From assembly GCF_000526935.1 (NCBI RefSeq), contig NZ_JAHA01000003.1, positions 372,001 through 436,000 of the forward strand: 64,000 bases of DNA, read 5' to 3'. Source of the DNA: Butyrivibrio sp. FCS014. GTDB taxonomy: Bacteria; Bacillota; Clostridia; Lachnospirales; Lachnospiraceae. Position 1 is the first letter of the stretch. Each line of letters begins with the position of its first letter. Shown here piece after piece: positions 40,052-56,509 of the stretch. The notes beneath the pieces are model-generated. The model had not been told where the DNA came from and searched no databases. It worked only from the letters and a program-made list of their open reading frames with translations. The position numbers and the translations under genes were made by a program.

Positions 40052-40063
40052 AGGAGAGAGGAT

Positions 40064-41740: not shown

Positions 41741-41782
41741 TCTATCATTGAAAAAAGTATTGTTGAATGAGGAGTGAATATT

Positions 41783-43465
41783 ATGCAGCTTACAGGATCA
41801 CAGATCGTACTTGAATGCCTTAAGGAACAGGGCGTTGATACCATATTCGGATATCCGGGAGGAACAATTCTGAATATCTATGACGAGCTCTACAAACAGC
41901 AGGACAACTTCCTGCACATTCTTACATCCCATGAGCAGGGCGCTGCCCATGCGGCTGACGGCTATGCAAGATCCACCGGCAAGGTCGGCGTTTGCTTTGC
42001 CACCAGCGGTCCCGGTTCCACCAACCTTGTAACCGGAATTGCTACAGCCTACATGGATTCCGTTCCCATGGTAGCCATCACCTGCAATGTAAATCTTCCT
42101 CTTTTGGGAAAAGACACATTCCAGGAGGTAGATATCGCAGGCATCACAATGCCCATTACAAAGCATGGATACATTGTTAAGGATGTAAAGGTTCTTGCGG
42201 ATACCATCAGAAAGGCCTTCAAGATAGCCAGAACCGGTCGTCCCGGCCCTGTACTGGTGGATATTACTAAGGATGTTACGGCTAATTCATGCGATTACAG
42301 ACCTGTACAGATCACAGAGGAGGAGCCTGCAAGGAAGTACACTGAAGAGGATATCAAGCAGGCGCTTAAGCTTATAAAGGCATCAAAGAGACCTTATATC
42401 TATGTGGGAGGCGGTGCGGTTATTTCCGGAGCTTCAAAGGAGCTTAGAAAGTTTGCAAAAACCATTGATGCCCCTGTCTGCGATACTCTTATGGGCAAAG
42501 GCGCATTTGATGCTTCCGACAAGCTTTATACAGGCATGATCGGTATGCACGGAACCAAGACCTCTAACTTCGGAGTCAGCGAGTGTGACCTTCTTATCAC
42601 ACTTGGAGCAAGATTCTCCGACAGAGTAACCGGAAATGCCAGAACCTTTGCTTCAAAGGCCAAGATTCTCCAGATCGATATCGATGCTGCAGAGATCAAC
42701 AAGAACATCAGGACCAACCATGCCATTGTTGGTGATCTTAAGCAGGTTCTTTCAGTTCTCAACGAAAGACTGGAGAAGCAGGATCATTCAGAATGGCTTA
42801 AGAAGATTTTTGATTACAAGAAGAAATTCCCGCTTAGCTACGAGACCAAGAAGCTTACCTGCCCTTATATCATTGAGGAGCTGGATAAGCTCACAGACAG
42901 CGATGCCATAATTACCACTGATGTAGGTCAGCACCAGATGTGGGCTGCCCAGTATTATAAGTTCAAGAATCCAAGAACCTTCCTTACATCGGGAGGTCTT
43001 GGTACAATGGGCTACGGACTTGGAGCCTGCATAGGAGCCAAAGTTGGTAATCCCGACAAGGTATGCGTTAACGTTGCCGGAGACGGGTGCTTCCGTATGA
43101 ACATGAATGAGCTGGCAACAGCTTCAAGATACAATCTCCCTATCATTGAGATCGTTATCAACAATCATGTTCTCGGAATGGTAAGACAGTGGCAGACTCT
43201 TTTCTATCAGCAGCATTATTCACAGACAGTATTCGAGGACAAGGTTGATTACTGCAAGGTTGCAGAAGGCCTTGGATGCATGGCTATCAAAGTCACCAAA
43301 AAGTCGGAAGTGGTTCCTGCCCTTAAAAAGGCTCTTGCAGCCAAGGGACCTGTACTTATAGACTGCATCATTGAAGAAGATGACAAGGTATTTCCTATGG
43401 TATCTCCCGGAGCTTCCATAAGCGAGGCTTTTGATGCTTCGGATCTTGCTGCAAAAAATAAGTAA
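41783..43465 (+). CDS. ilvB: Acetolactate synthase large subunit
   Basis: This thiamine-diphosphate enzyme condenses pyruvate to acetolactate, or with 2-ketobutyrate, in branched-chain amino-acid synthesis. The start is ATG 41783, with AGGAG eight bases upstream; the GTG at 41774 overlaps that site. The product has 560 residues. The catalytic Glu lies in LTSHEQGAAHAADGYAR, FAD and substrate regions are in the middle, and the ThDP motif is GDGCFRMNMNELATA followed by NNHVLGM. No ilvN regulatory subunit follows: the next gene is an L,D-transpeptidase. Confidence 0.96.
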   Translation: MQLTGSQIVLECLKEQGVDTIFGYPGGTILNIYDELYKQQDNFLHILTSHEQGAAHAADGYARSTGKVGVCFATSGPGSTNLVTGIATAYMDSVPMVAITCNVNLPLLGKDTFQEVDIAGITMPITKHGYIVKDVKVLADTIRKAFKIARTGRPGPVLVDITKDVTANSCDYRPVQITEEEPARKYTEEDIKQALKLIKASKRPYIYVGGGAVISGASKELRKFAKTIDAPVCDTLMGKGAFDASDKLYTGMIGMHGTKTSNFGVSECDLLITLGARFSDRVTGNARTFASKAKILQIDIDAAEINKNIRTNHAIVGDLKQVLSVLNERLEKQDHSEWLKKIFDYKKKFPLSYETKKLTCPYIIEELDKLTDSDAIITTDVGQHQMWAAQYYKFKNPRTFLTSGGLGTMGYGLGACIGAKVGNPDKVCVNVAGDGCFRMNMNELATASRYNLPIIEIVINNHVLGMVRQWQTLFYQQHYSQTVFEDKVDYCKVAEGLGCMAIKVTKKSEVVPALKKALAAKGPVLIDCIIEEDDKVFPMVSPGASISEAFDASDLAAKNK

Positions 43466-43485
43466 TTAAACGGAGTTGTTGGGGA

Positions 43486-45006
43486 ATGAAAAAAGTATTG
43501 CGTGGAATATCCATTGGCTTTCTTGCCACCATAGCAATCCTGGCGATTATATATTGCCTCCTTGGTTTTTATTACCGGGGAGGCTTTCCCTGTTTTACCT
43601 GGATTAACGGCGTATACTGCACAGGGAAAAGTGTAAGCGAAGTAAACGAGGAGCTTATTGCAAAGGATCCCTATCAGGGAATCGCTGTTCTTGACAGGGG
43701 AGAAGCAAGGCTCTTTGTGAGCGCTTCGGATGTTGACTATTCAGTGGATTATACCGATGCCCTGAATCAGGTATTCTACAACAGAAGTCCCTTTGCCTGG
43801 GGGCTTTATGTCTTTGAAAATCTTTCCTATAACTACAAGCCTCAGGTTACGATGGACAAGAGCAAACTGTCCGGGATCATATCCAACTGGGAGATATTTT
43901 CGGTTCCTTCCGATGCCAAATGCAGTGTTAAGATGCAGACCGGAGAGGGATTTATTCTTGAAAATGCTCATATGCTAACGCCTGTTGAAGATCGTATATC
44001 AGACAGGGTCTACAGATCCATGATGCAAGGCGATGAGGTTGTGGATCTTGGAGAATTTGAGGAATGCTATGTTGAGACAACTCTTACCGCTTCGGAGCAG
44101 GAGAGGGTTTCATTGTATGAGAAACTTGATAAACTACAGGACTTTGACGTTACCTATGATTTTGCCGGAGAAACGGTAAGGCTTAGCCGCGCTGTTGCCA
44201 GCGGTTTCATTCTTACTCTCGGAGATTATGCAAAGGCTTCCGAAGAAGAGGTGAAGGCAGGCGGCGGCTCCGGTATGTTTATAGTCGGAGGAAAAGAAAC
44301 TGAGCTTCCCGATGCGGACAGTATATATACTGTAGCTGATATCCTTACTGATGCAGAAGGAAATCCAATTATTTCCGAGAAGCGAATATATGACTTTCTG
44401 TCTGATGCGGCAGAGGGTCATGACACCGAATGGATGATGAAACGTTTCAAGAATGGCCTTTCAAATGAAGTCATACTTACTACCGGCAAGAAGGGAAACG
44501 GCAAGATCTATGACGTTGACGGCGAGTTTGAAAACGTTAAGAATGCACTGATCTCTTCGGGTACAGGCCTTAAGGGAACAAAATCTTTCCCTGTGATTGA
44601 CGGGGTTCTTACCGTGGATGCATCGGAGAAACTTGGCAGTACTTTCATAGAAGTTGACATGAAAAATCAGATGCTTTACTACTATGTGGATGGAAAATTA
44701 TCCATGGATATGCCTGTTGTAACAGGAAATATTAACAGGGGAAGAGGAACTCCTGCAGGTGTTTATAATGTTTATAATAAAAGATATCACACCTATTTAC
44801 ATGGAGTTGATTACGTTTCTTATGTAAATTATTGGCTAGGAGTTGAAAAAGGAGTTGGCATTCATGATGCCAACTGGAGGAAAAAATTCGGTGAAGAAAT
44901 TTACAAATCAGATGGATCTCATGGGTGTATAAATTGTCCTATTGATTCGGTTTCAAAGCTTTGGGAAGTGGCCGAAGTTGGCACTCCTGTTATTATGTAT
45001 TACTGA
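43486..45006 (+). CDS. L,D-transpeptidase (YkuD) with peptidoglycan-binding region
   Basis: The 506-residue protein has an N-terminal membrane anchor (about residues 8-29), then a region resembling tandem PG_binding_4-type domains (NGVYCTGKSVSEV and following). The C-terminal YkuD catalytic domain starts near residue 385. The active-site motif is visible: His in GVGIHDANW and the nucleophile Cys in SHGCINCP, where the extra Cys after Asn is less usual than Met or Arg. The predicted role is forming 3-3 crosslinks or attaching proteins to peptidoglycan outside the membrane. It lies 20 bases behind ilvB and is followed by a terminator, so it is the last gene of the leuB operon. Confidence 0.9.
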   Translation: MKKVLRGISIGFLATIAILAIIYCLLGFYYRGGFPCFTWINGVYCTGKSVSEVNEELIAKDPYQGIAVLDRGEARLFVSASDVDYSVDYTDALNQVFYNRSPFAWGLYVFENLSYNYKPQVTMDKSKLSGIISNWEIFSVPSDAKCSVKMQTGEGFILENAHMLTPVEDRISDRVYRSMMQGDEVVDLGEFEECYVETTLTASEQERVSLYEKLDKLQDFDVTYDFAGETVRLSRAVASGFILTLGDYAKASEEEVKAGGGSGMFIVGGKETELPDADSIYTVADILTDAEGNPIISEKRIYDFLSDAAEGHDTEWMMKRFKNGLSNEVILTTGKKGNGKIYDVDGEFENVKNALISSGTGLKGTKSFPVIDGVLTVDASEKLGSTFIEVDMKNQMLYYYVDGKLSMDMPVVTGNINRGRGTPAGVYNVYNKRYHTYLHGVDYVSYVNYWLGVEKGVGIHDANWRKKFGEEIYKSDGSHGCINCPIDSVSKLWEVAEVGTPVIMYY

Positions 45007-45031
45007 TAAATACTGAGCTTACTAATAATTT

Positions 45032-45060
45032 AATCCGGCCTCGTGCCGGATTTTATTTTG
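45032..45060 (+). terminator. Terminator of the leuB-L,D-transpeptidase operon
   Basis: An 8-bp perfect stem, AATCCGGC/GCCGGATT, is followed by a TTATTTT tail 26 bases after the stop codon. Confidence 0.85.
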
Positions 45061-45111
45061 CTTAAAATGCATCAAAAAATATTAAATAACATAGATTATG
45101 GAATCACGTTA

Positions 45112-45139
45112 TTGACAAAAATAATTATACGAATAGAAT
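45112..45139 (+). promoter_or_regulatory. Promoter of the serC-serA operon
   Basis: A consensus -35 TTGACA (45112-45117) and a -10 TAGAAT (45134-45139) with 16-bp spacing lie in a very AT-rich stretch. The leader to the serC start is only about 45 bases, too short for a T-box or riboswitch. Confidence 0.75.
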
Positions 45140-45191
45140 AGAATTTATAATTCAAAATTCAAAAATTTAAATGTTCTAGGAGGAAAAGTAA

Positions 45192-46271
45192 GTGTCACGA
45201 GTTTATAATTTTTCAGCCGGACCCGCAGTGCTTCCTGAGGAAGTTTTGAAACAGGCTGCAGCAGAAATGCTGGATTACAATGGCTGCGGTATGTCTATCA
45301 ACGAGATGAGCCACAGATCCAAGACCTTCGACAGCGTTATCCAGACTGCAGAGCAGGATATCAGAGATCTTATGAATATTCCTGACAATTACAAGGTCCT
45401 CTTTTTACAGGGCGGCGCAAGCCAGCAGTTCGCAGCTGTGCCTCTCAATCTTATGAAGAATAAAAAGGCCGGATATATCATCACAGGCCAGTGGGCCAAG
45501 AAGGCATATCAGGAAGCTCAGAAATACGGCGAGGCCGTTGAGCTTGCATCAAGTGCTGACAAGACCTTCTCATATATTCCCGATTGTTCTGATCTTGATA
45601 TAGCCGATGATCTTGACTATGTATATATCTGCGAGAACAACACCATCTACGGAACCAAGTTCAAGACTCTTCCCAACACCAAGGGAAAGATCCTTGTATC
45701 TGATGTTTCTTCCTGCTTCCTTTCAGAGCCTGTAGATGTTACCAAGTACGGCGTTATCTACGGCGGAGTTCAGAAGAACGTAGGACCTGCAGGTCTTGTT
45801 ATCAGCATCATCAGAGAAGACCTCATTACAGATGATGTTCCTTCCTACACACCTACAATGCTCAAGTGGAAGACCCAGGCAGACAACGGCTCTTTATACA
45901 ACACTCCCAACTGCTGGAGCATCTATATGTGCGGCCTTGTTTTCAAGTGGCTTAAAGCCCAGGGCGGCCTCACGGAGATGAAGAAGAGAAATGAAGAGAA
46001 GGCTGCGATCCTTTACGATTATCTTGACCAGAGCAAGATGTTCAAGGGAACTGTAAGACCACAGGACCGCTCTCTTATGAATGTTCCTTTTGTTACAGAT
46101 TCCGAGGAACTCAATGCCAAGTTCATAGCTGAGGCTACCAAGGCCGGCTTCGTAAGCCTTAAGGGCCACAGAACCGTGGGCGGCATGAGAGCAAGTATCT
46201 ACAACGCAATGCCTATCGAGGGCGTTAAGAAACTGGTTGAGTTCATGGACAAGTTTGAAAAGGAGAATTGA
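45192..46271 (+). CDS. serC: Phosphoserine aminotransferase
   Basis: This PLP enzyme converts 3-phosphohydroxypyruvate to phosphoserine in serine synthesis and also acts in pyridoxal synthesis. The start is GTG 45192, with AGGAGG upstream; it yields the family N-terminus MSRVYNFSAGPAVLPEEVL. The 359-residue protein has GGASQQFAAVP, the PLP-Lys region YGGVQKNVGPAG and the C-terminal GHRTVGGMRASIYNAMP. serA starts 3 bases after its stop, so the two are co-transcribed. Confidence 0.97.
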   Translation: MSRVYNFSAGPAVLPEEVLKQAAAEMLDYNGCGMSINEMSHRSKTFDSVIQTAEQDIRDLMNIPDNYKVLFLQGGASQQFAAVPLNLMKNKKAGYIITGQWAKKAYQEAQKYGEAVELASSADKTFSYIPDCSDLDIADDLDYVYICENNTIYGTKFKTLPNTKGKILVSDVSSCFLSEPVDVTKYGVIYGGVQKNVGPAGLVISIIREDLITDDVPSYTPTMLKWKTQADNGSLYNTPNCWSIYMCGLVFKWLKAQGGLTEMKKRNEEKAAILYDYLDQSKMFKGTVRPQDRSLMNVPFVTDSEELNAKFIAEATKAGFVSLKGHRTVGGMRASIYNAMPIEGVKKLVEFMDKFEKEN

Positions 46272-46274
46272 TAA

Positions 46275-47444
46275 ATGTTCAAATATAAGTGCTTAAATCC
46301 CATTGCAAAGATCGGTCTCAACAATTTCAACGGCAACTTTCAGGCTGTAGACAATGTTGATGACGCTGAAGGAATCCTTGTAAGAAGTGCCAATATGCTT
46401 GAGATGGAGTTCTCCGAGAACCTTCTTGCCATCGCAAGAGCCGGTGCCGGTGTAAACAATATCCCTCTGGACAGATGTGCTCAGGAAGGAATCGTTGTAT
46501 TCAATACTCCCGGTGCCAATGCCAACGGCGTTAAAGAGATGGTACTGGCTGCAATGCTCATCGCATCCCGTGACATCATCGGAGGAACAGAGTGGGTTAA
46601 GGCCAATGCAGGCGATCCCGAGATTGCAAAGCTCACTGAGAAATCCAAGAAGAAATTTGCCGGAACCGAGATCTTCGGCAAGAAGCTTGGTATCATCGGA
46701 CTTGGCGCCATCGGCGTAAGAGTGGCAAATGCTGCAAGGCAGCTTGGTATGGAAGTATATGGATACGATCCTTACCTTTCAATTGATGCTGCATGGAGAC
46801 TTTCTTCCGATGTTAAGCACGTTACAAATGTTGATGACATCTATTCAAAGTGCGATATTATCACAGTCCATGTTCCTGCTCTGGATTCAACCAAGGGAAT
46901 GATCAACAAGGATGCCATCGCCAAGATGAAGAAGGGTGTTATCCTCATCAACCTTGCAAGGGATATTCTCTGCAATGAAGCTGATGTTCTTGCAGGTATC
47001 AATTCAGGCAAGATCAGAAAGTATGTTACCGATTTCCCGAATCCTGTTGTAGCCGGACATGACGGATGTATCGTTATCCCTCACCTTGGCGCTTCAACAG
47101 AGGAGTCAGAGGACAACTGCGCAGTAAAGGCTGTTCTTGAGCTCAAGGACTATCTTGAGAACGGAAACATCAATAACTCAGTGAATTTCCCCAACTGCGA
47201 CATGAGTATCTGCACAAGACCCAGGGTTGCTATTTTCCATAAGAATGTAGCAAACATGATCTCCCAGTTCACATCCGTTCTGGGTGATGCAGGCCATAAC
47301 ATCTCAGATATGACCAATAAGTCAAAGGGCGATTATGCTTACACTCTTATCGACATCGAGGACGGCGTCACAGATGCCATCGTCAAGAAGCTTTCCAAGG
47401 TTGACGGTGTTATCCGTGTCAGAGTTGTAAGAAAAGACCTTTAA
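46275..47444 (+). CDS. serA: D-3-phosphoglycerate dehydrogenase
   Basis: This NAD enzyme catalyses the first step of serine synthesis. The 389-residue protein has the catalytic Arg region around ARAGAGVNNIPL, the Rossmann motif GLGAIGVRVANAA near residue 147, the RDILCNE segment, the His in IPHLGASTEESEDNCA, and a C-terminal ACT domain (about residues 315-389) that is a likely serine sensor. It lies directly downstream of serC. Confidence 0.97.
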   Translation: MFKYKCLNPIAKIGLNNFNGNFQAVDNVDDAEGILVRSANMLEMEFSENLLAIARAGAGVNNIPLDRCAQEGIVVFNTPGANANGVKEMVLAAMLIASRDIIGGTEWVKANAGDPEIAKLTEKSKKKFAGTEIFGKKLGIIGLGAIGVRVANAARQLGMEVYGYDPYLSIDAAWRLSSDVKHVTNVDDIYSKCDIITVHVPALDSTKGMINKDAIAKMKKGVILINLARDILCNEADVLAGINSGKIRKYVTDFPNPVVAGHDGCIVIPHLGASTEESEDNCAVKAVLELKDYLENGNINNSVNFPNCDMSICTRPRVAIFHKNVANMISQFTSVLGDAGHNISDMTNKSKGDYAYTLIDIEDGVTDAIVKKLSKVDGVIRVRVVRKDL

Positions 47445-47471
47445 TATCTTTATAATAATAGTAGAATAAGT

Positions 47472-47504
47472 AGGAGAGGTCCCGGGGCTTTCGGGATCTC
47501 TCCT
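47472..47504 (+). other. Hairpin between serA and the DUF1015 gene
   Basis: A 13-bp stem with one G-T pair (arms 47472-47484 and 47492-47504) ends in AAAATTA, so it lacks the T-run of an intrinsic terminator. It lies just upstream of the DUF1015 ribosome site and may shape mRNA stability or processing. Confidence 0.55.
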
Positions 47505-47528
47505 AAAATTATGAAGGGGGAAACACAA

Positions 47529-48779
47529 ATGGCAGATATAAGGCCTTTTAAAGCATATAGACCCGCAAAGGGCAAAGAAGAGTTGATCGCCTCCCTGCCC
47601 TATGACGTTTTTAACAGGAAGGAAGCGGCAGAAGCTGTAAAAAAGAATCCGGATTCATTTCTTTCCATCGACAGGCCGGAGACTTTTTTCCCTGAAGATC
47701 AGGACATGTACGCTCCCGAAGTTTACGCCAAAGCCGGAGAGGTTTTGTGGGAAAGAATAGAGAAAAAAGACTTCATCCGGGATGAAGAAAACTGCTATTA
47801 CATCTACGAGCAGACCATGGACGGTCGCGTTCAGACAGGAATTGTGGCTCTCTCATCCATTGATGACTATCTTAACAACGTGATCAAAAAGCACGAGAAC
47901 ACAAGAGAGGACAAGGAGAAGGACAGGATCGAGCATGTGTACAACTGCAAAGCTCAGACCGGCCCTATTTTCCTGTGCTACAGAGAAAATGACATCATAA
48001 GCCAGATCGTTGACCGGGTAAAAGAGATGGATACACCCGTTTACGATTTTGTATCCGAGGATGGTGTCAGGAGCCGTGTCTGGGTCATGGAGGATGAAGA
48101 AGAGAACAACATGATCAGCAGGTCTTTTGCCGGGATAAATGAAATATACATTGCCGATGGGCACCACAGATGCGCTTCTGCGGTGAAGGTTGGCCTTCGG
48201 AAAAGAAAAGAGGATGAAGGAAAGGTTCGCGGCAAGCAGGAATATGACTACTTTTTGTCGGTTCTTTTCCCTGATTCACAGCTTATGATCATGGATTACA
48301 ACCGCCTTGTTAAGGATCTAAACGGGATGACTGCCGGTGAGTTTCTTGATAAATTGTCCGAAAAGTTCGACATTAAAAATGAGGATGCGGCTGTAAAGCC
48401 TGCTGCCAAGGGAGAGTTCGGGCTTTTCCTCGAGAAAAAGTGGTACAGGCTTAAGGCTCATGAGGATATCATGAAGGATGATCCCGTTGAGGGACTTGAT
48501 GTATCTATACTTCAGAATGAGGTCCTTTCTCCCATGCTTGGAATAGGAGATCCAAGAAGCGATAAGAGGATCGATTTTGTTGGTGGAATAAGAGGGCTTG
48601 GAGAGCTTGAAAAACGCTGCAATGAGGACATGGAGATAGCTTTTTCCATGTATCCCACATCCATAGGTGAGCTCTTTGCGGTTGCCGATGCCGGAAAACT
48701 CATGCCTCCGAAATCCACCTGGTTTGAACCAAAACTACTCAGCGGGTTATTTATACACCCTATTTGTGGTAAACTGTAA
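47529..48779 (+). CDS. DUF1015 family protein
   Basis: The start is ATG 47529, with AAGGGGG upstream; the in-frame ATG at 47511 precedes that site. The 416-residue product matches DUF1015 by its N-terminus DIRPFKAYRPAKG, the SLPYDVFNRKEA and PDSFLSIDRPE segments, IADGHHRCASAVKVG near residue 210, and a C-terminal PPKSTWFEPKLLSGLF motif. The biochemical role of the family is not established. The serC-serA-DUF1015 order suggests a link to serine metabolism. The His-His-Arg motif looks like an active or binding site. Confidence 0.9.
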   Translation: MADIRPFKAYRPAKGKEELIASLPYDVFNRKEAAEAVKKNPDSFLSIDRPETFFPEDQDMYAPEVYAKAGEVLWERIEKKDFIRDEENCYYIYEQTMDGRVQTGIVALSSIDDYLNNVIKKHENTREDKEKDRIEHVYNCKAQTGPIFLCYRENDIISQIVDRVKEMDTPVYDFVSEDGVRSRVWVMEDEEENNMISRSFAGINEIYIADGHHRCASAVKVGLRKRKEDEGKVRGKQEYDYFLSVLFPDSQLMIMDYNRLVKDLNGMTAGEFLDKLSEKFDIKNEDAAVKPAAKGEFGLFLEKKWYRLKAHEDIMKDDPVEGLDVSILQNEVLSPMLGIGDPRSDKRIDFVGGIRGLGELEKRCNEDMEIAFSMYPTSIGELFAVADAGKLMPPKSTWFEPKLLSGLFIHPICGKL

Positions 48780-48815
48780 GAGATATCTGACTAATATTAT
48801 CAAGGGAGGATCCCA

Positions 48816-51377
48816 ATGAATAATAAGCTTTACAAAATGATGAACTGGCCGGAGATAGAAGAGATTATCTATTCTGACGGTGACAATCCCCACAGAATCT
48901 TAGGAGCCCACAAGGTTGGATCAAGCTGTCTTATCCAGGCTTTTTACCCTGATGCAGCTAACATGAAGGTATATATAGAAAACTCCAAGAAGAGCTATGA
49001 TATGGAACTTGCCGATGAGGCAGGATTCTATGCTGTTATCGTTCCTTATGTGGACAAGCTCAAGTACCACTTTGTTATAACCGATGCCGACGGCAATGAG
49101 AAAAAGGTCGATGATCCCTATGCTTTCGGACCTCTTATGGACAGAGAGGATTTCATAAAACTGGGCAGCGGCATTCATTTTCATATCTATGAGAAACTTG
49201 GCGCGCACCCTATGACCAGAGGCGGCATAAAGGGAACCAATTTTGCGGTATGGGCACCCTCTGCTGCAAGAGTCAGCGTTATAGGCGATTTTAACGGATG
49301 GGACGGAAGAATCTGTCAGATGCACAGGCTTGACCCCATCGGCGTTTTCGAAATATTTATTCCCGGTGCTTTGGAGGGAGATGGATATCAGTTTGAGATA
49401 AAGACAAGAAGCGGACTGCTCTTTAAGCGTCCTGACCCTTACGCAACATCATCAAGGGGTGAGAACGGTATGATCTCCGTTATCGATAAGGTGGATTCCA
49501 TCAAGTGGACTGATGAAAAGTGGCTGGGAGAGAGGGCCAAATTCGATAAGGATGAAGCACCCCTTTCTATCTGCGAGATTTCACTGGAGTCCTTTGCCGG
49601 AAGACATGACGGCAAGAGCACCATGGAGGAGATAACGGCCGATGTTCTTGAGTATGTTAAGAATCACGGCTTTGACACCATTGATCTTATGCCTTTGATG
49701 AAGCATCTCCCCGGACACTTCTTCCATACACTCAATTACTTTGCTCTTGATGATGTCTGCGGCGGCAGAACGGGACTTATGCATTTCGTCAATACCATGC
49801 ACGAGAACAATATCAGGGTCATCCTTGACTGGGTTCCTACTTTCTTCCCTAAGTCCTCATGCGGCCTTAGCGACTTTGATGGAAAGCCCTTGTATGAATA
49901 TGCCGATCCCAGAATCGGTATTCATCCAAGATCCGGCGATCTTATCTTTGATTACGGAAGAAAAGAAGTTACCAATTACCTGATTTCCTGTGCACTTTAC
50001 TGGATAGAGACCTTCCATCTGGACGGTATCAGAACATCGGATATATCAAGGATCCTTTATCTTGATTACGACAGAAAGCCCGGAGAGTGGCTTCCGAACA
50101 TTTACGGAGGTAATGAAAACCTTGAGGCTCTTGAGTTCCTTAAGCAGTTTACCTCTGTTCTTCACAAGAATACTCCCGGTGTACTTCTTGTTACAAAGGA
50201 AACAGCCTGCTGGCCTCATGTTACCGATGATACCGAGGATGGCGGACTCGGCTTTGATTACAAGTGGAACAACGGATGGTCCAGAGACTTCCTTAACTAT
50301 ATGGAAAATGACCCTCTTTTCAGGTCCGGCCATCACGACGAGGTTACATTCAGCCTTATTTACAGCTATACCGAGAGATTTATTCTGGCCTTCACCCATG
50401 AGGACTTCGAAAAAGGCCTTGAGGGACTCTATTATCTGATGCCCGGTGATTCCGCACAGAAGATGGCAAACCTTCGCCTGGCCATTGGATTTATGATGGT
50501 ACATCCCGGAAGAAAGCACCTTTACATGGATCCCGATGCACTTACCGTAGATCAGTCAGTATTTGTTGAGAACATGATAAAGAATCTCAATGACCTCTAC
50601 TTCAAAAAGCCGGCGCTTCACATGTTTGATAACAATGAAGGTGGTTTTGAATGGATCAATGTCCTTCCTTCAGATGATTGCATGCTTTCATTCGTGCGCA
50701 AGACCGACAATGAGAAGGACATGCTTCTGGTCGTTGCCAATATGGCCGGCGTTGAGAGAGACTTAGAGATAGGTGTTCCCGCTGACGGAAGATATAATGA
50801 AGTATTTAACTCCGATCATATCAGCTACGGCGGAACCGGCATTCTCAATGAAGGCAGAATGGAAGCCAGAAGAAAAGAGGTTGACGGAAGAGACTACTCA
50901 ATTGCCATCAAGATGGCTCCCGTTTCACTGGCAATCTTTAGCTATACCCCTTATACTGAGCAGGAGAAGAAGATCCGTGCCATCAAAGAAGAGGAAGAGC
51001 TGAAGAAAGAGCAGGAGAGACAGGAGAAGCTTGAAGCTCTTAAGCAGAAACAGTCTGAGGAGGAGGAAAGACTTCTCAAGGAACTGAAGCTTAAATATGA
51101 GAATGAGCTCATGGAGCAGGAAAAGGCTATCGAGGAGAAATATGCCAAGATAGAGGAGGAGAGGATATTCAGCATTGTCTCTGAGGAGGCGATAAAGAGT
51201 ATCGCAAGGAACAGCAATCCTGCTGCAAAGGCTCCTGCAGCGCCTTCCGGAAAGACTGCGGCTAAGAAGGCTCCTGCCAAGAAAGAGGCAGAAAAGGCTC
51301 CTGCAAAAAAGAAAACGGCAACAGCTAAAACAGCCTCAAAGCCTGCTGCAAAGAAGACAACACCTAAGAAAAAATAA
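48816..51377 (+). CDS. GlgB-like protein, predicted catalytically inactive, with coiled coil and Lys-rich tail
   Basis: The 853-residue protein follows the glycogen branching enzyme layout: N1 domain (NPHRILGAH), CBM48 (FAVWAPSAARVSVIGDFNGWDG), GH13 barrel and C-terminal beta domain. Compared with known GlgB motifs, the nucleophile Asp of RVDAV is Ser408 (DGIRTSDIS), the acid/base Glu of AEEST is Lys461 (VTKETACWP), and the third Asp of SHDEV is Glu529 (THEDF). The conserved SWGYQ loop is lost and DWVPxHFP reads DWVPTFFP. A highly charged coiled coil (about residues 712-795) and an Ala/Lys/Pro tail (about 800-853) are added. It lies 36 bases after the DUF1015 gene. A scaffold or glucan-binding role is inferred; automated annotation would probably call it an active branching enzyme. 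Confidence 0.85.
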   Translation: MNNKLYKMMNWPEIEEIIYSDGDNPHRILGAHKVGSSCLIQAFYPDAANMKVYIENSKKSYDMELADEAGFYAVIVPYVDKLKYHFVITDADGNEKKVDDPYAFGPLMDREDFIKLGSGIHFHIYEKLGAHPMTRGGIKGTNFAVWAPSAARVSVIGDFNGWDGRICQMHRLDPIGVFEIFIPGALEGDGYQFEIKTRSGLLFKRPDPYATSSRGENGMISVIDKVDSIKWTDEKWLGERAKFDKDEAPLSICEISLESFAGRHDGKSTMEEITADVLEYVKNHGFDTIDLMPLMKHLPGHFFHTLNYFALDDVCGGRTGLMHFVNTMHENNIRVILDWVPTFFPKSSCGLSDFDGKPLYEYADPRIGIHPRSGDLIFDYGRKEVTNYLISCALYWIETFHLDGIRTSDISRILYLDYDRKPGEWLPNIYGGNENLEALEFLKQFTSVLHKNTPGVLLVTKETACWPHVTDDTEDGGLGFDYKWNNGWSRDFLNYMENDPLFRSGHHDEVTFSLIYSYTERFILAFTHEDFEKGLEGLYYLMPGDSAQKMANLRLAIGFMMVHPGRKHLYMDPDALTVDQSVFVENMIKNLNDLYFKKPALHMFDNNEGGFEWINVLPSDDCMLSFVRKTDNEKDMLLVVANMAGVERDLEIGVPADGRYNEVFNSDHISYGGTGILNEGRMEARRKEVDGRDYSIAIKMAPVSLAIFSYTPYTEQEKKIRAIKEEEELKKEQERQEKLEALKQKQSEEEERLLKELKLKYENELMEQEKAIEEKYAKIEEERIFSIVSEEAIKSIARNSNPAAKAPAAPSGKTAAKKAPAKKEAEKAPAKKKTATAKTASKPAAKKTTPKKK

Positions 51378-51389
51378 ATAAATTTCATG

Positions 51390-51418
51390 TTGTAAATTAA
51401 AAAAGGGCACATTATAAT
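51390..51418 (+). promoter_or_regulatory. Promoter of tRNA-Thr
   Basis: A -35 TTGTAA (51390-51395) and a -10 TATAAT (51413-51418) are separated by 17 bp. The predicted start is near 51425, about 12 bases before the mature tRNA. The -10 box lies in the loop of the hairpin at 51402-51434. Confidence 0.7.
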
Positions 51419-51434
51419 AGGTCATGTGCCCTTT
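51402..51434 (+). terminator. Hairpin at the end of the GlgB-like gene, overlapping the tRNA promoter
   Basis: An 11-bp perfect stem, AAAGGGCACAT/ATGTGCCCTTT, has a loop that contains TATAAT. The tail after the stem is short (AT, then the tRNA), but the 3' arm itself ends in CTTT. It may end upstream transcription weakly. Confidence 0.6.
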
Positions 51435-51436
51435 AT

Positions 51437-51509
51437 GCTGGAATAGCGCAGTCGGTAGCGCAACTGATTCGTAATCAGTAGGTCGAGGGTTCAAGTCCCT
51501 TTTCCAGCT
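51437..51509 (+). tRNA. tRNA-Thr (anticodon CGT)
   Basis: A full cloverleaf can be drawn: acceptor GCTGGAA/TTCCAGC, D arm GCGC/GCGC, anticodon stem ACTGA/TCAGT with loop TTCGTAA (anticodon CGT, reads ACG), and T arm GAGGG/CCCTT with loop TTCAAGT. The discriminator base is T and CCA is not encoded. A terminator follows 12 bases later. Confidence 0.95.
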
Positions 51510-51520
51510 CGATTTTTTTG

Positions 51521-51552
51521 AAAGAGATGCTTTTATACGGCATCTCTTTTGT
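51521..51552 (+). terminator. Terminator of tRNA-Thr
   Basis: A 10-bp perfect stem, AAAGAGATGC/GCATCTCTTT, is followed by T. A further T-run (51513-51519) lies just before the stem. A TATAAT at 51555-51560 directly after it may be the -10 box of apt. Confidence 0.8.
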
Positions 51553-51625
51553 GTTATAATAAAATGTCAAAGTATTTGTTATAGCGCTAAGGTCTGAAAA
51601 TCGGACAGCGCAGAGAGGAATTAGT

Positions 51626-52150
51626 ATGAAAGAACTACAAGATTACGTGAGAACCATTCCTGATTTCCCGGAACCCGGCATTATGTTCAGGGATATTACG
51701 TCAGTGCTTCAGGATCCCGATGGATTCAAGCTTGCAATTGACAAGATGCAGGACCTTATCAAGGATCTCGATTTTGATGTGGTACTCGGAGCTGAGTCCA
51801 GAGGATTCATTTTCAGTGCACCCATCGCATACAACAGAGGAAAGGCACTTGTTCCTGTCCGTAAGAAGGGTAAACTCCCCTGCGAGACAGTAGAAGTATC
51901 CTATGACCTTGAATATGGTCAGGCTACACTTGAGCTTCACAAGGATTCCATTAAACCCGGACAGAAGGTACTTCTTGTAGATGACCTTATGGCTACAGGC
52001 GGAACCATTGAGGCTATGATCAAGCTTGTAGAGATGCTTGGCGGAGAAGTTGCAGGTATCCTCGTTCTCATGGAGCTTAAAGGTCTTAAGGGACGTGAGA
52101 GACTAAGTAAATACAGATTAGACGCGGCACTTAGTTATGAAGGTAAATAA
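51626..52150 (+). CDS. apt: Adenine phosphoribosyltransferase
   Basis: This enzyme salvages adenine to AMP with PRPP. The 174-residue protein has the family opening IPDFPEPGIMFRDIT, the ESRGFIF motif and the PRPP-binding loop VLLVDDLMATGGT. The start ATG 51626 has GAGGAA upstream. The stop is 3 bases before the rel start; apt next to rel is a common arrangement in Clostridia. A possible -10 box TATAAT lies at 51555-51560, but the -35 is poor. Confidence 0.96.
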   Translation: MKELQDYVRTIPDFPEPGIMFRDITSVLQDPDGFKLAIDKMQDLIKDLDFDVVLGAESRGFIFSAPIAYNRGKALVPVRKKGKLPCETVEVSYDLEYGQATLELHKDSIKPGQKVLLVDDLMATGGTIEAMIKLVEMLGGEVAGILVLMELKGLKGRERLSKYRLDAALSYEGK

Positions 52151-52153
52151 TTG

Positions 52154-54436
52154 ATGGCACAGAACTTCGATGACGGAAAAATTGAAGCCATCGAGGAGTT
52201 TCAGTCTCCTGATAAGCTATACAACGGTCTTATTCAGAGAGTGAGAAAATATCACCCTTCCGATGATATCACTCTTATAGAGAAGGCTTACAATCAGGCT
52301 TATGAAGCTCACGAGGGGCAGACGCGAAAATCAGGTGAACCTTATATCATTCACCCTCTTTGCGTGTCAATAATCCTTGCTGATTTGGAAATGGACAAAG
52401 AGACCATTGCAGCAGGGCTTCTTCATGATGTCGTTGAAGACACCATCTGTACCAAAGAAGAGATTGAAAAGTGGTTCGGTGCAGACGTAGCCCTTCTGGT
52501 TGACGGTGTTACCAAATTGACGGCACTGCAGCTTACCACGGACAACACCAATAAAACCCAGGAACAGATCGACATGCAGGCTGCAAACCTGCGTAAGATG
52601 TTCCTTGCAATGGCCAAGGATATAAGGGTAATCCTTATCAAACTGGCCGACAGACTTCACAATATGAGAACCCTTGGGCATATGCCTCCTGAGAAACAAC
52701 AGAGGATAGCCCAGGAAACCCTTGATATTTACTCACCCATTGCAGGCAGGCTCGGTATCAGCAGGATCAAGGTAGAACTTGACGATCTTTCCCTTAAATA
52801 TCTTAAACCCGATGTTTACAGGGATCTGGCTGAGAAGGTTGCCGTAAGAAAGAGCGAGAGAGAACGCTATGTTGAGGAGATCTGCGAGAATGTTCGGAAG
52901 AACATAGAGGCCGCAGGAATTAAGGGAGAAGTAAACGGTAGGGTTAAGCACTTCTTCAGTATTTATAAGAAGATGCGTAACCAGAACAAGACGCTGGATC
53001 AGATCTACGATCTTTTTGCCATAAGGATCATTGTATCAACAGTCAAGGACTGCTATGCAGCGCTTGGTGTTATCCATGAACTCTATAAACCCATACCGGG
53101 AAGGTTCAAGGATTATATCGCAATGCCCAAGCCAAACATGTATCAGTCTTTGCATACCACTCTTATCGGTCAGACGGGCCAGCCCTTCGAAATCCAGATA
53201 AGAACTTATGATATGCACAGAGCTGCTGAATACGGTATCGCAGCTCACTGGAAATACAAAGAGGCTTCAGACGGCAAGAAGGCAGAAAACGGTGAAGAGG
53301 AGAAGCTCATCTGGCTTCGTCAGATCCTCGAATGGCAACAGGATCTGTCTGACAACCAGGAATTCATGAGTCTTCTTAAGAGTGATCTCAATCTCTTTTC
53401 CGAGGATGTATATTGCTTTACTCCCACGGGTGAAGTTAAGAATCTTCCTGCAGGCTCGACACCTATTGATTTTGCTTACAGCATTCACAGTGCTGTAGGT
53501 AACAAGATGATTGGCGCCAAGGTCAACGGCAAACTGGTTCCCATCGATTACAAGATCCAGAACGGTGACAGAATTGAGGTTGTGACCAGCCAGAATTCCA
53601 AGGGTCCCAGCCGTGACTGGCTCTCTATAGCAAGATCCACATCAACCAAGAACAAGATCAATCAGTGGTTCAGACATGAGCTCAAGGAAGAGAATATTAC
53701 CAAGGGCAAGGAACTACTTATAGAGTATTGCAAGAGTAAGGGACTTGATTATTTTGCCATAGCCAAGCCGGAATTCCAGAATCTCGTCACCAAGAAGTAC
53801 GGATTCCGGGAATGGGATGCCGTATTGGCGGCAGTTGGACACGGCGGACTTAAAGAAGGCCAGATAATCAATAAGATACTGGAACTCTCTGACAAGGATC
53901 ACAAGCGCAACATTACTGATGAAGAGGTTCTTGCAGCTGTTGCGGAATCCAATGTTACCCCTCAGGTTTCAGGCTCGGATAATGCCATTATCGTAAAGGG
54001 AGTGCACGACGTTGCAGTAAGATTCTCCAAGTGCTGCAACCCGGTTCCCGGTGATGATATCTGCGGCTTTGTTACTAGGGGCAGAGGTGTATCCATACAC
54101 AGAAGAGACTGCATCAACGTTATCAAGATGCAGGAGGAAGACAGAACAAGGCTTATTGAGGCAAGATGGCAGAGCGATTCTGCCCAGGGCGGCGGTAAAT
54201 ATGCTGCAACCATCAAAATCTTCGCCAACAACAGAAGCGGCCTTCTGGCTGATGTTTCAAGAGCCCTTACCGAGAAGGATATCGATATCATTTCCATGAA
54301 CACAAGGACCAGCAAACAGGGACTTGCCACCATGGAGACTTCCTTCCAGGTTTCATCAAGAGACCAGCTTAGGGACATCGTTGATAAGATCAGACAGATC
54401 GACAGCGTAATAGATATTGAGAGGACGACAGGTTAA
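52154..54436 (+). CDS. relA: Bifunctional (p)ppGpp synthetase/hydrolase
   Basis: This protein makes and degrades the stringent-response alarmone. The 760-residue product keeps the HD hydrolase motif (LLHDVVEDT), the synthetase region with RFKDYIAMPKPNMYQSLHTT (RFKD-type loop as in bifunctional Rel proteins), a TGS domain (VYCFTPTGEVKNLPAGSTPIDFAYSIHSAVG), a Cys-containing zinc-finger-like region (SKCCNPVPGDDICGF) and a C-terminal ACT domain. ATG 52154 is preferred to TTG 52151, with AAGG 10 bases upstream. The next gene overlaps its stop (TAATG). Confidence 0.96.
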   Translation: MAQNFDDGKIEAIEEFQSPDKLYNGLIQRVRKYHPSDDITLIEKAYNQAYEAHEGQTRKSGEPYIIHPLCVSIILADLEMDKETIAAGLLHDVVEDTICTKEEIEKWFGADVALLVDGVTKLTALQLTTDNTNKTQEQIDMQAANLRKMFLAMAKDIRVILIKLADRLHNMRTLGHMPPEKQQRIAQETLDIYSPIAGRLGISRIKVELDDLSLKYLKPDVYRDLAEKVAVRKSERERYVEEICENVRKNIEAAGIKGEVNGRVKHFFSIYKKMRNQNKTLDQIYDLFAIRIIVSTVKDCYAALGVIHELYKPIPGRFKDYIAMPKPNMYQSLHTTLIGQTGQPFEIQIRTYDMHRAAEYGIAAHWKYKEASDGKKAENGEEEKLIWLRQILEWQQDLSDNQEFMSLLKSDLNLFSEDVYCFTPTGEVKNLPAGSTPIDFAYSIHSAVGNKMIGAKVNGKLVPIDYKIQNGDRIEVVTSQNSKGPSRDWLSIARSTSTKNKINQWFRHELKEENITKGKELLIEYCKSKGLDYFAIAKPEFQNLVTKKYGFREWDAVLAAVGHGGLKEGQIINKILELSDKDHKRNITDEEVLAAVAESNVTPQVSGSDNAIIVKGVHDVAVRFSKCCNPVPGDDICGFVTRGRGVSIHRRDCINVIKMQEEDRTRLIEARWQSDSAQGGGKYAATIKIFANNRSGLLADVSRALTEKDIDIISMNTRTSKQGLATMETSFQVSSRDQLRDIVDKIRQIDSVIDIERTTG

Positions 54437-55092
54437 TGGGAGATTCCACTATCAAAGTCGGCATGTTCACACTGGGCATGGTAGCTACAAATTGCTACTT
54501 TGTCTTTGATGAGAGCGCCACTGATGAAGAGGGCAGGTTTCACGCTGCCTTTTTTGACCCTGCAGATAAGGGAGAGAGGATATACGAGGCTCTTTCTGAG
54601 AAGAATATAGTGGTTGATAAGATCCTTCTGACCCACGGGCATTTTGACCATATAGGCGGCGTTGAGGCGCTTAAGAAACTCTCCGGAGCAAAGGTTGGCT
54701 GCTATGAGAAGGAGCAGGCTCTTTGCAATGATCCATATCTTAATCTTTCCAACGACTACGGCTGGCACTGGAAAGTGGTTCCCGATGAAACATACAGGGA
54801 CGGCGAAGTTGTGACTGTTGCCGGAATTGACTTTAAGGTTCTTGCTACTCCCGGCCATACCTCTGGAGGCTGCTGCTATTATATCGAAAAAGCCGGTATA
54901 CTCATCAGTGGTGATACACTGTTTGAGGAATCTGTCGGAAGAACCGATTTCCCTACAAGTTCCACAAGGGAACTGGTGAATTCCGTCAAAGAAAAACTAT
55001 TTGTTCTTCCCGATGATACGATCGTTTATCCCGGACACGGAGAACTTACAACCATAGGACACGAAAAGGAATACAATCCTTTTATCATGTAA
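54436..55092 (+). CDS. MBL-fold hydrolase (glyoxalase II-like)
   Basis: This 218-residue metallo-beta-lactamase-fold protein has the metal motif THGHFDHIGG, further ligands in PGHTSGG and SGDTLF, and the final His in YPGHGELTTIG. Family members include thioester hydrolases of the GloB/YcbL type; the substrate cannot be assigned. The start overlaps the rel stop (TAATG), and hemZ begins 5 bases after its own stop, so it is part of the apt-rel-hemZ operon. Confidence 0.9.
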   Translation: MGDSTIKVGMFTLGMVATNCYFVFDESATDEEGRFHAAFFDPADKGERIYEALSEKNIVVDKILLTHGHFDHIGGVEALKKLSGAKVGCYEKEQALCNDPYLNLSNDYGWHWKVVPDETYRDGEVVTVAGIDFKVLATPGHTSGGCCYYIEKAGILISGDTLFEESVGRTDFPTSSTRELVNSVKEKLFVLPDDTIVYPGHGELTTIGHEKEYNPFIM

Positions 55093-55096
55093 TCAT

Positions 55097-56509
55097 ATGC
55101 AGATAATCTATATTAAAGAAGATAAGTATCAATATGACATCCATTCCCTTTTTAAGGCCTTTTATCCTCAGGATGAAGTAAGAGTCCTTATAGGGGAGCA
55201 GGGTGACAACCCGGATAAAGAGAAGGATATTTCAGCACAGGATGAAATATCCTTTATTGATGTAAACAAATCCAAGAACGACCTGAAAAAAGACATATAC
55301 AGGATGCTGTCTGAAAAAACCGGAAAAGTTCTGCCCTGGGGAGACTTAACAGGCATTCGTCCCACCAGAATTGCCATGAATCTTATAGATGAGGGCATGA
55401 GCGATGATAAGATCGCGGCATATATGAAGGATACATATCTGGTCAGCGACGAAAAGACTGCCCTTGCCATAGACATCGCCCGCCGTGAAAAGGAGATCAT
55501 TAAGGACATCGACTATGAGAACGGCTACAGTCTGTATCTGGGTATTCCTTTTTGCCCCACCACCTGTCTTTACTGTTCCTTCACATCTTATCCCATAGTA
55601 TCTTTCAGGCATCTTGTGGACGATTATATTTCCTGCCTTGAAAAAGAGATTGATTATGTGGCGCAGGCCTTTGCGGGAAAGACTCTTGATACCGTATATA
55701 TCGGCGGAGGAACACCTACAACCCTTGAACCTGATCAGATAAGGCGCCTTATCGGATATATGAAGGACAAGCTTGATATGTCCAGAGTAAAAGAGTTTAC
55801 TGTTGAGTCCGGAAGACCTGATTCAATCACAAGGGAAAAGCTTAAGGCAATGAAAGAGATGGGGGTTACCAGAATATCCGTAAATCCTCAGACCATGAGT
55901 GATGAGACCCTTAGGATAATAGGAAGACAGCACACGGTAGCTCAGCTTATTGACGCCTTTAAAATGGCCAGGGAAGAGGGCTTTGACAATATCAACATGG
56001 ATATAATCCTGGGGCTTCCCGGAGAAGGCTCAGAGGACGTTCAGCATACCATTGATGAGATAAAAAAGCTTTTGCCGGATGATCTTACGGTTCATTCCCT
56101 TGCAATCAAGAGAGGATCAAGGCTCTTTGAGGCCATAAGAGAACGGGAGCTTAAGGGCGAACTTAAAGTCACAATGCTCGAATCCATGAACAATACAGAA
56201 GAGATGATGGAGATAGCCCAAAGGGGAGCAAAAGAAATGGGGCTTGAGCCATATTATCTCTACAGGCAGAAGAACATCAGCGGTAATTTCGAAAACACCG
56301 GCTACGCAAGACCGGGAAAAGCAGGTATCTATAACATCCTTATAAATGAAGAGGTTCAGTCTATTGTAGCACTGGGTGCAGGAACCGTAACAAAGAGAGT
56401 CTATAATGAAGGCGGAAGGATAGAGCGCTGCGACAATGTCAAGGATGTGAAGCTCTATATGGACAATATAGAGGAGATGATCGAAAGGAAGAGAAAGCTG
56501 TTTCTCTAA
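55097..56509 (+). CDS. hemZ: HemZ-type radical SAM protein
   Basis: This 470-residue radical SAM protein of the coproporphyrinogen III dehydrogenase-like HemZ family has cluster ligands C153, C157 and C160 in IPFCPTTCLYCSF. IGGGTPTTLEPDQ and TVESGRPDS follow. The N-terminal 130 residues form the extra domain typical of HemZ. No ribosome site is obvious at ATG 55097, so translation is probably coupled to the upstream gene. No other haem-synthesis gene is in the window, so classic coproporphyrinogen oxidation is uncertain. HemN-like relatives also include haem-degrading and other radical SAM enzymes. Confidence 0.88.
   Translation: MQIIYIKEDKYQYDIHSLFKAFYPQDEVRVLIGEQGDNPDKEKDISAQDEISFIDVNKSKNDLKKDIYRMLSEKTGKVLPWGDLTGIRPTRIAMNLIDEGMSDDKIAAYMKDTYLVSDEKTALAIDIARREKEIIKDIDYENGYSLYLGIPFCPTTCLYCSFTSYPIVSFRHLVDDYISCLEKEIDYVAQAFAGKTLDTVYIGGGTPTTLEPDQIRRLIGYMKDKLDMSRVKEFTVESGRPDSITREKLKAMKEMGVTRISVNPQTMSDETLRIIGRQHTVAQLIDAFKMAREEGFDNINMDIILGLPGEGSEDVQHTIDEIKKLLPDDLTVHSLAIKRGSRLFEAIRERELKGELKVTMLESMNNTEEMMEIAQRGAKEMGLEPYYLYRQKNISGNFENTGYARPGKAGIYNILINEEVQSIVALGAGTVTKRVYNEGGRIERCDNVKDVKLYMDNIEEMIERKRKLFL

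Follow-up and report, generated by a model that had tools for sequence, protein, structure and literature searches.

The gene at positions 48,816 to 51,377 (forward strand) of a 64,000-nucleotide stretch from Butyrivibrio sp. FCS014 (hereafter the window; positions 372,001 to 436,000 of contig NZ_JAHA01000003.1, assembly GCF_000526935.1) encodes an 853-amino-acid protein that, judged from its sequence, is a pseudoenzyme: it is homologous to glycogen branching enzyme (GlgB), its catalytic residues are lost, and it is presumably without branching activity. The gene is under strong purifying selection and is not decaying. We lean toward the view that this dead GlgB paralogue is kept by selection as a noncatalytic, alpha-glucan-binding scaffold; its branching inactivity, its glucan binding, a partner, and the role of its helix and tail are all putative. 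The reading frame, which begins with ATG, was confirmed, and a purine-rich sequence resembling a ribosome-binding site was seen by eye directly 5' of the start codon.

The active site was read from an alignment with sequences in the PDB and from a MAFFT alignment that included Escherichia coli GlgB. In both, Ser408 (50,037 to 50,039; this and all gene features below are on the forward strand) stands at the position of the nucleophile Asp (E. coli D405), Lys461 (50,196 to 50,198) at that of the acid/base Glu (E458), and Glu529 (50,400 to 50,402) at that of the third, transition-state Asp (D526), with no alignment gap adjoining any of the three. The same substitutions had been proposed by eye in the first-pass annotation, and they stand: the two alignments agree, and the PDB alignment places no intact Asp-Glu-Asp. 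In the MAFFT alignment, Asp409 (50,040 to 50,042), one residue past the nucleophile position, takes the place of an Ala in intact enzymes. The SWGYQ loop, described earlier as missing, is indeed disrupted: W298 and G299 of the E. coli motif (297 to 301) have no counterpart, and Y300 and Q301 are replaced by Phe303 and His304. E. coli H340 corresponds to Phe343, and a second cleft loop, which bears E. coli W586 (glucan site I), is deleted.

The reference set for these readings consisted of 68 full-length and 21 short intact GlgBs picked by the presence of Asp-Glu-Asp; across these 89 enzymes, nine other active-site positions were invariant in the MAFFT alignment. The Butyrivibrio clade was represented by 59 distinct rows for 88 loci, including two (L085 and L086) labeled Lachnospiraceae bacterium. 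None of the three catalytic residues was present in any of the 59 rows. The nucleophile position was Ser in 43, Ala in 10, Pro in 3, and Thr in 3, and never Asp; the acid/base position was Lys and the third acid Glu in all 59. Sequencing error or a frameshift as the source of the active-site loss was ruled out because the same loss was seen in 59 distinct rows. Tyr at the position of E. coli Y300 was retained in 51 of the 59. The Asp directly after the old nucleophile was found in all 59 clade rows, in 17 of 33 degenerate rows from other lineages, and in none of the 89 intact rows, and about six changes at this position were counted on the tree. Four further copies from the same genus were read. 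Two repeat known rows, and the other two (L347 in genome G015 and L349 in genome G034) have Pro408, Arg461, Asp529, and Ser instead of His528; they keep Asp409 and have lost two of the three catalytic residues. Thus, the substitutions extend through the relatives, but Lys461 and Glu529 are not universal. As aligned, the whole Butyrivibrio clade has lost both the nucleophile and the acid/base residue, and nearly all of it has Lys461 and Glu529.

The ratio of nonsynonymous to synonymous substitution rates (dN/dS; Nei-Gojobori) between this gene and four Butyrivibrio relatives was 0.03 to 0.06. With the two nearest relatives, the barrel and the helix described below each had a ratio of ∼0.02; for the tail it was 0.4 in the single pair with a computable dS, and the tail is loosely constrained. 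Long open frames persist even between copies as divergent as 48% identity. A counterpart at ≥53% identity was found in 34 of 37 genomes of the genus (the source genome included), the three genomes that lack one are 60 to 72% complete, and all 32 genomes that are at least 75% complete carry it. The low dN/dS and the presence of a counterpart in 32 of 32 such genomes show that the gene is not dying, in agreement with the earlier description of an intact, maintained frame.

The source genome carries a second, canonical GlgB (L002; G000:C8:370205-372106), which is 39% identical to the 853-residue protein, has neither the GlgB_N domain nor the tail, and is intact at all 12 active-site positions. 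With this paralogue found, the earlier proposal of a maintained pseudoenzyme holds on each count: replaced catalytic residues in 59 of 59 rows, low dN/dS, and an intact GlgB in the same genome. By eye, a long open reading frame and then a ksgA-like gene lie 5' of L002. One glycogen synthase above the family cutoff was detected in the genome. A glgB of Butyrivibrio fibrisolvens has been reported as active (Rumbak 1991, as cited in PMC9960391; here and below, PMC articles are cited from excerpts), and we infer that this gene was of the short paralogue type.

The body of the protein remains that of a branching enzyme, as had been claimed for the sequence flanking the lost motifs. GlgB_N (residues 11 to 102; 48,846 to 49,121; PF22019), CBM48 (residues 127 to 210; 49,194 to 49,445; PF02922), and an all-beta alpha-amylase C domain (residues 613 to 709; 50,652 to 50,942; PF02806) were found with Pfam. 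The GH13 (beta/alpha)8 barrel, in which the catalytic residues are replaced, spans approximately residues 251 to 600 (49,566 to 50,615) according to Pfam, AlphaFold2, and structure comparison; the Pfam barrel match itself is weak and covers residues 276 to 341. The AlphaFold2 model, built from a 37-row alignment, had a mean predicted local distance difference test score of 84.3, with low confidence from residue 783. Against the branching enzyme structure 5gqu, the model gave a VIA Z of 47.3 over 610 residues with a root mean square deviation of 2.4; Foldseek was also run. The closest PDB relatives by sequence were Cyanothece branching enzymes, and the order and predicted fold of CBM48, barrel, and C domain are those of GH13_9 branching enzymes. 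The protein exceeds the cutoffs of two NCBIfam models, TIGR01515 (574.9 bits versus 463.95) and NF008967 (596.2 versus 577), and it can thus be expected to receive the name branching enzyme from annotation pipelines, which is probably a misnomer. It scores below the cutoff of the four other branching-enzyme NCBIfam models listed (e.g., PRK05402, 618.2 versus 741).

The C domain is followed by a long charged helix predicted by AlphaFold2 (residues 715 to 786; 50,958 to 51,173) and by a low-confidence tail (51,174 to 51,374), rich in Lys, Ala, Pro, and Thr from residue 803 (51,222), that is probably disordered, as modeled. The helix and basic tail were part of the first-pass annotation and are present; the coiled coil that it assigned to the helix was rejected. 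In a simple count against shuffles, made without a coiled-coil program, hydrophobic residues at heptad positions numbered 9 (9.9 in shuffles; standard deviation, 1.1), showing no excess, and opposite-charge pairs at i,i+4 numbered 19 (11.4 in shuffles; standard deviation, 2.7), a charge pattern as in single alpha-helices. The segment fits a rigid single charged helix, ∼10 nm long if straight, better than a coiled coil. By eye, the sequence of the basic tail varies among relatives and its composition is steady; a search of the genome with the tail, a weak test for low-complexity sequence, gave no second match. Extensions of at least 30 residues occur in 59 of 59 Butyrivibrio clade rows, in 18 of the 33 other degenerate rows, and in 42 of the 68 intact full-length rows. 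The extension is not tied to catalytic loss, because intact copies have it too, and the suggestion that it was gained together with the loss of catalysis was therefore rejected.

Putative pseudo-GlgB copies recur in many genera of the Lachnospiraceae beyond Butyrivibrio, which the first-pass annotation had missed. The survey covered 120 genomes, one per genus, of this GTDB family. DUF1015, whose gene adjoins the pseudo-glgB, was present in 100 of the 120, and 98 of the 99 other DUF1015 neighborhoods were examined (G132 was omitted, and its GlgB was entered as L244). Further GlgB_N-bearing copies were added with the GlgB_N model from among the matches listed, with weak matches chosen by judgment; some weak unlinked copies may have escaped, and the survey counts are a minimum. 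At least 93 GlgB_N-bearing copies were found in at least 81 genera, of which 92 copies in 80 genera were usable (L313, whose end is masked, was dropped). Among the matches listed, 65 of the 92 were intact at all 12 positions, and the other 27, each from a different genus, were degenerate. In 26 of the degenerate copies, all three catalytic residues were lost in 10, two in 10, one in 5, and only neighboring residues in 1 (L225); an alignment gap at the third catalytic residue was scored as a loss. The 27th (L312), truncated where its contig ends, shows Asn in place of the nucleophile; it was counted as degenerate and omitted from the 26-row retention test below. L103 and L225 were placed in the degenerate group by hand, and four other GlgB-like enzymes (L298, L306, L307, and L212) were left out of the alignment counts.

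An intact GlgB was also present in 26 of the 27 genera with a degenerate copy, counting the intact copies of G068 and G157, which are in pieces, as one gene each. The exception is G098, in which the single detected GlgB lies over two contigs (L312/L330, L339) and has Asn in place of the nucleophile Asp, with the other residues that could be read intact. It is possible that this change is a draft-assembly error in a gene split at contig edges.

Several lines of tree evidence suggest that the active site was lost more than once. In a careful tree of 65 rows, built with the motif columns removed after 11 long or truncated and 4 redundant rows had been left out of 80, there were 9 changes between intact and degenerate states (bootstrap, 7 to 9), 3 of which are forced by the starred branches. 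A single degenerate clade, in a group named after the first tree was seen, was rejected by the approximately unbiased test (P = 0.02). In the survey tree, built from 82 rows (17 of them degenerate) after 11 of the 93 copies had been left out, there were also 9 changes (forced minimum, 3; bootstrap, 6 to 10 and not settled), and a single change was seen in 0 of 200 trees; a quick survey tree gave 5 changes, 4 of them forced. The trees contain long branches. More than one independent loss is well supported by these sequence comparisons, and the exact number is not fixed by the trees.

The retention of residues at predicted glucan sites points toward a scaffold. Among the glucan sites tabulated for E. 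coli GlgB, Trp159 (site IV) and Trp628 (site VI) are reported to affect enzyme activity (PMC10254366). Their counterparts here are Trp162 in CBM48 (49,299 to 49,301), which is Trp in 55 and Phe in 4 of the 59 clade rows, and Trp613 at the start of the C domain, which is Trp in all 59. Each was kept in 32 of the 33 other degenerate rows, and in the survey set they were kept in 23 and 24 of 26 rows, respectively. Of 137 positions invariant in the 89 intact enzymes, the 33 other degenerate rows, some of them closely related and hence not independent, keep on average 88% of those in CBM48 (22 positions) and 62% of those in the barrel domain (112 positions). The least-kept positions are mostly in the cleft motifs, among them W298, A406, M483, M486, V529, H530, and K532, several of which do not define the group. 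Across the 26 survey rows, mean retention was 0.85 for 28 positions before the barrel and 0.68 for the 98 others from there onward (C domain included); it was 0.93 for 7 C-domain positions and 0.42 for the 12 active-site positions, a comparison that is partly circular because those 12 positions define the degenerate group.

If the scaffold reading is right, surface sites on the body of the protein (GlgB_N, CBM48, emptied barrel, and C domain) would attach it to glycogen. The ∼70-residue helix (∼10 nm if straight) together with the basic, disordered tail would serve to bind a partner, for instance another enzyme of glycogen metabolism, or to anchor the glycogen particle, and branching would be left to the second, intact GlgB. 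The anchoring to nucleic acid or membrane suggested in the first-pass annotation is not supported; the observations go no further than a tail that is basic and predicted to be disordered. Besides the circularity and the nonindependence noted above, several observations weigh against this. Trp422, which is not among the tabulated glucan sites, shows similar retention (94%), and structure alone might therefore explain the retention of the residues corresponding to Trp159 and Trp628. In Butyrivibrio, glucan site I is deleted and site VII is deleted or altered, and even intact relatives fail to conserve several of the other glucan-site residues known from E. coli. The extension is shorter than 30 residues in 15 of the 33 other degenerate rows; because many degenerate copies elsewhere are tailless, the helix and tail cannot be a general mechanism. 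The neighbors of the pseudo-glgB are serine genes rather than glycogen genes, and no binding or activity data on this protein were found in the literature.

Directly upstream, separated by short gaps, are serC, encoding phosphoserine aminotransferase (45,192 to 46,271; NCBIfam), a phosphoglycerate dehydrogenase-like gene (serA; 46,275 to 47,444; TIGR01327 match below the cutoff), and the DUF1015 gene (47,511 to 48,779; PF06245), which is kept in many relatives and whose product had no PDB relative by sequence. A consensus scan, with counts near the shuffled mean, gave a promoter-like site before serC and no forward-strand terminator-like site from serC to the end of the pseudo-glgB. No RNA family besides tRNA reached the threshold at 40,000 to 56,000 of the window. 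The order serC-serA-DUF1015-glgB was found at most Butyrivibrio loci and in other genera, some of them with an intact GlgB. Thus, the colocation with serine synthesis genes pointed out earlier is real, but it is common to intact copies and is not special to the pseudoenzyme. Ten Butyrivibrio loci (L068 to L071, L073, L075, L077, L080, L082, and L089) had none of these neighbors in the examined stretch, and their pseudoenzyme is equally degenerate. Among the matches listed, 22 intact and 14 degenerate copies lay within 6 kb downstream of DUF1015, and 43 intact and 13 degenerate copies lay elsewhere or at unknown positions. Linkage to DUF1015 was rejected as a condition of loss (Fisher's exact test, P = 0.16), intact copies being linked too; P was 0.005 only if the four degenerate copies of the latter class that lie at contig edges (in G079, G132, G136, and G176) were counted as linked.

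Other features of these loci and of the window were recorded. At three of the ten loci without serine or DUF1015 neighbors, which belong to a second Butyrivibrio group (L070, 8,526 to 9,443; L073, 8,532 to 9,434; and L077, 8,548 to 9,474), a gene of ∼300 residues follows the pseudo-glgB with a 1-base overlap or a few bases apart, and it encodes an MscS-type channel according to Pfam in L070 and L077. One contig titled Muribaculaceae bacterium (L095), in which an intact glgB lies in a serC-serA-DUF1015-glgB order like that of Lachnospiraceae, is perhaps from a mislabeled metagenome bin. Far from the pseudo-glgB, positions 222 to 20,390 of the window hold a frame of 6,722 residues with a very Thr-rich stretch and, by eye, an apparent C-terminal membrane part; it looks like a giant surface protein, and its Thr-rich stretch is probably the cause of the strong AT skew at 14 to 20 kb. 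Next to this giant gene, a frame of 555 residues on the reverse strand (20,685 to 22,352) resembles an IS66-type transposase by eye.

Four other explanations of the pseudo-glgB were weighed. The protein might be a dedicated noncatalytic subunit that joins the intact GlgB (or GlgA) in a hetero-oligomer and alters the chain preference or particle targeting of that active enzyme, in the manner of plant ISA2 with ISA1. This overlaps the scaffold reading but requires a stable enzyme complex, and we regard it as possible, although distinctly less probable. The full fold retained in the predicted structure, the intact GlgB found in nearly all genera with a degenerate copy, and, by analogy, the ISA2 precedent (PMC12510319) are consistent with it; the partner enzyme, however, is only hypothetical, and the presence of a GlgB partner says little because a strong GlgB match (best E value of ∼1e-150 or lower) was found in 116 of the 120 surveyed genomes irrespective of a degenerate copy. 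The function might instead have left glycogen altogether, the protein sensing or regulating the supply of sugar or serine together with DUF1015 and the serine genes, and CBM48 being a relic. The conservation of the gene order in many genera and the lack of a terminator-like site in the scan would suit such a role, but intact glgB genes occupy the same place, the ten loci without serine or DUF1015 neighbors are equally degenerate, and glucan-site residues persist; thus, it seems unlikely.

That the old cleft houses a new activity or small-ligand site is suggested by Arg406, Asp409, Lys461, Glu462, His528, and Glu529, which do not vary among the 59 clade rows, and by the repeated appearance of Asp after the nucleophile position. 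Yet this residue set is not strictly required, because the G015 and G034 copies have Arg461, Ser528, and Asp529; the cleft is missing two loops, the other residues of the set are absent from most degenerate lineages elsewhere, and a salt bridge in place of the buried acids would account equally well for the conservation, so that a new site appears quite improbable. Lost motifs and a loosely constrained tail are what a dying gene under relaxed selection would show, but the dN/dS values, the long frames, and the near-universal presence of a counterpart already contradict this for Butyrivibrio, and it is the least credible explanation. Broader than any of these is the idea of a recurrent Lachnospiraceae class of pseudoenzymes that organize or sense glycogen, have in common a new ligand site where the old cleft was, and would be the bacterial equivalent of plant ISA2 and PTST. 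By analogy this might be entertained, but we consider it doubtful, and equally so its component idea that lineages repeatedly took the same road, dismantling the branching site, often placing an acid right after the old nucleophile, and keeping the glucan-binding face.

Comparison with known systems places the scaffold reading in context. GH13_9 GlgBs with an N domain, such as Cyanothece BE1 (5gqu) and the mycobacterial enzyme (3k1d), have the same domain order and fold and much of the core in common with the pseudoenzyme; in the latter, the catalytic residues and SWGYQ are replaced, cleft loops are deleted, and a long helix and basic tail are added. The intact DUF1015-linked GlgB of Candidatus Eisenbergiella merdigallinarum (L094) shares the neighborhood, the N domain, and a PYTEEEK-like start of the extension, but its active site is intact and its extension differs in sequence. 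The short paralogue L002 belongs to the same superfamily. Plant ISA2 and PTST offer parallels outside bacteria. PTST proteins are not known to contain a GH13 barrel. The two plant examples show that polyglucan structure can be directed by GH13 or CBM48 proteins that lack catalysis (PMC12510319 and PMC6243121). ISA2 is a GH13 paralogue that has lost its catalytic residues and has an active relative in the same cell, as does the pseudoenzyme with L002; it differs in its debranching-enzyme lineage and its known partner, ISA1, and no such charged helix or tail is described in the excerpt (PMC12510319). PTST is noncatalytic, combines CBM48 with a long helical part, and acts in polyglucan targeting, but it is of unrelated origin and its helical part is described as coiled coils (PMC6243121); the pseudoenzyme has the CBM48 and, by the simple heptad count, no coiled coil. 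Chlamydial GlgA-GlgB fusions provide a bacterial GlgB domain reported to be inactive, which arose in a fusion by rearrangement and is not a free-standing paralogue that has been kept (PMC11046441).

Inactive Lachnospiraceae GlgBs were not found in the open-licence PMC literature, among the matches listed and as far as titles and the openings of abstracts go. The glgB2 gene of Butyrivibrio hungatei MB2003, encoding 824 amino acids with GH13 and CBM48, is listed as a branching enzyme (PMC5716241) and, by its length, is probably the counterpart of the pseudo-glgB. Several glgB homologues in Blautia and Dorea are mentioned in a review (PMC10395257), the excerpt of which carries no remark on inactive copies, and the term "branching enzyme" was not found in the excerpt of a Butyrivibrio proteoclasticus proteome paper.

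If these readings are true, about one-third of the sampled genera of this gut and rumen family that have a GlgB_N-bearing GlgB (27 of 80, among the matches listed) carry a copy that only bears the name of a branching enzyme, and tallies of branching enzymes taken from genomes would be inflated, B. hungatei glgB2 being an example (PMC5716241). The several natural losses alongside intact relatives would form a ready comparative series. Bacterial glycogen is usually described through enzymes alone; a noncatalytic glucan binder kept by selection would, if confirmed, be a direct handle on how bacterial glycogen particles are organized.

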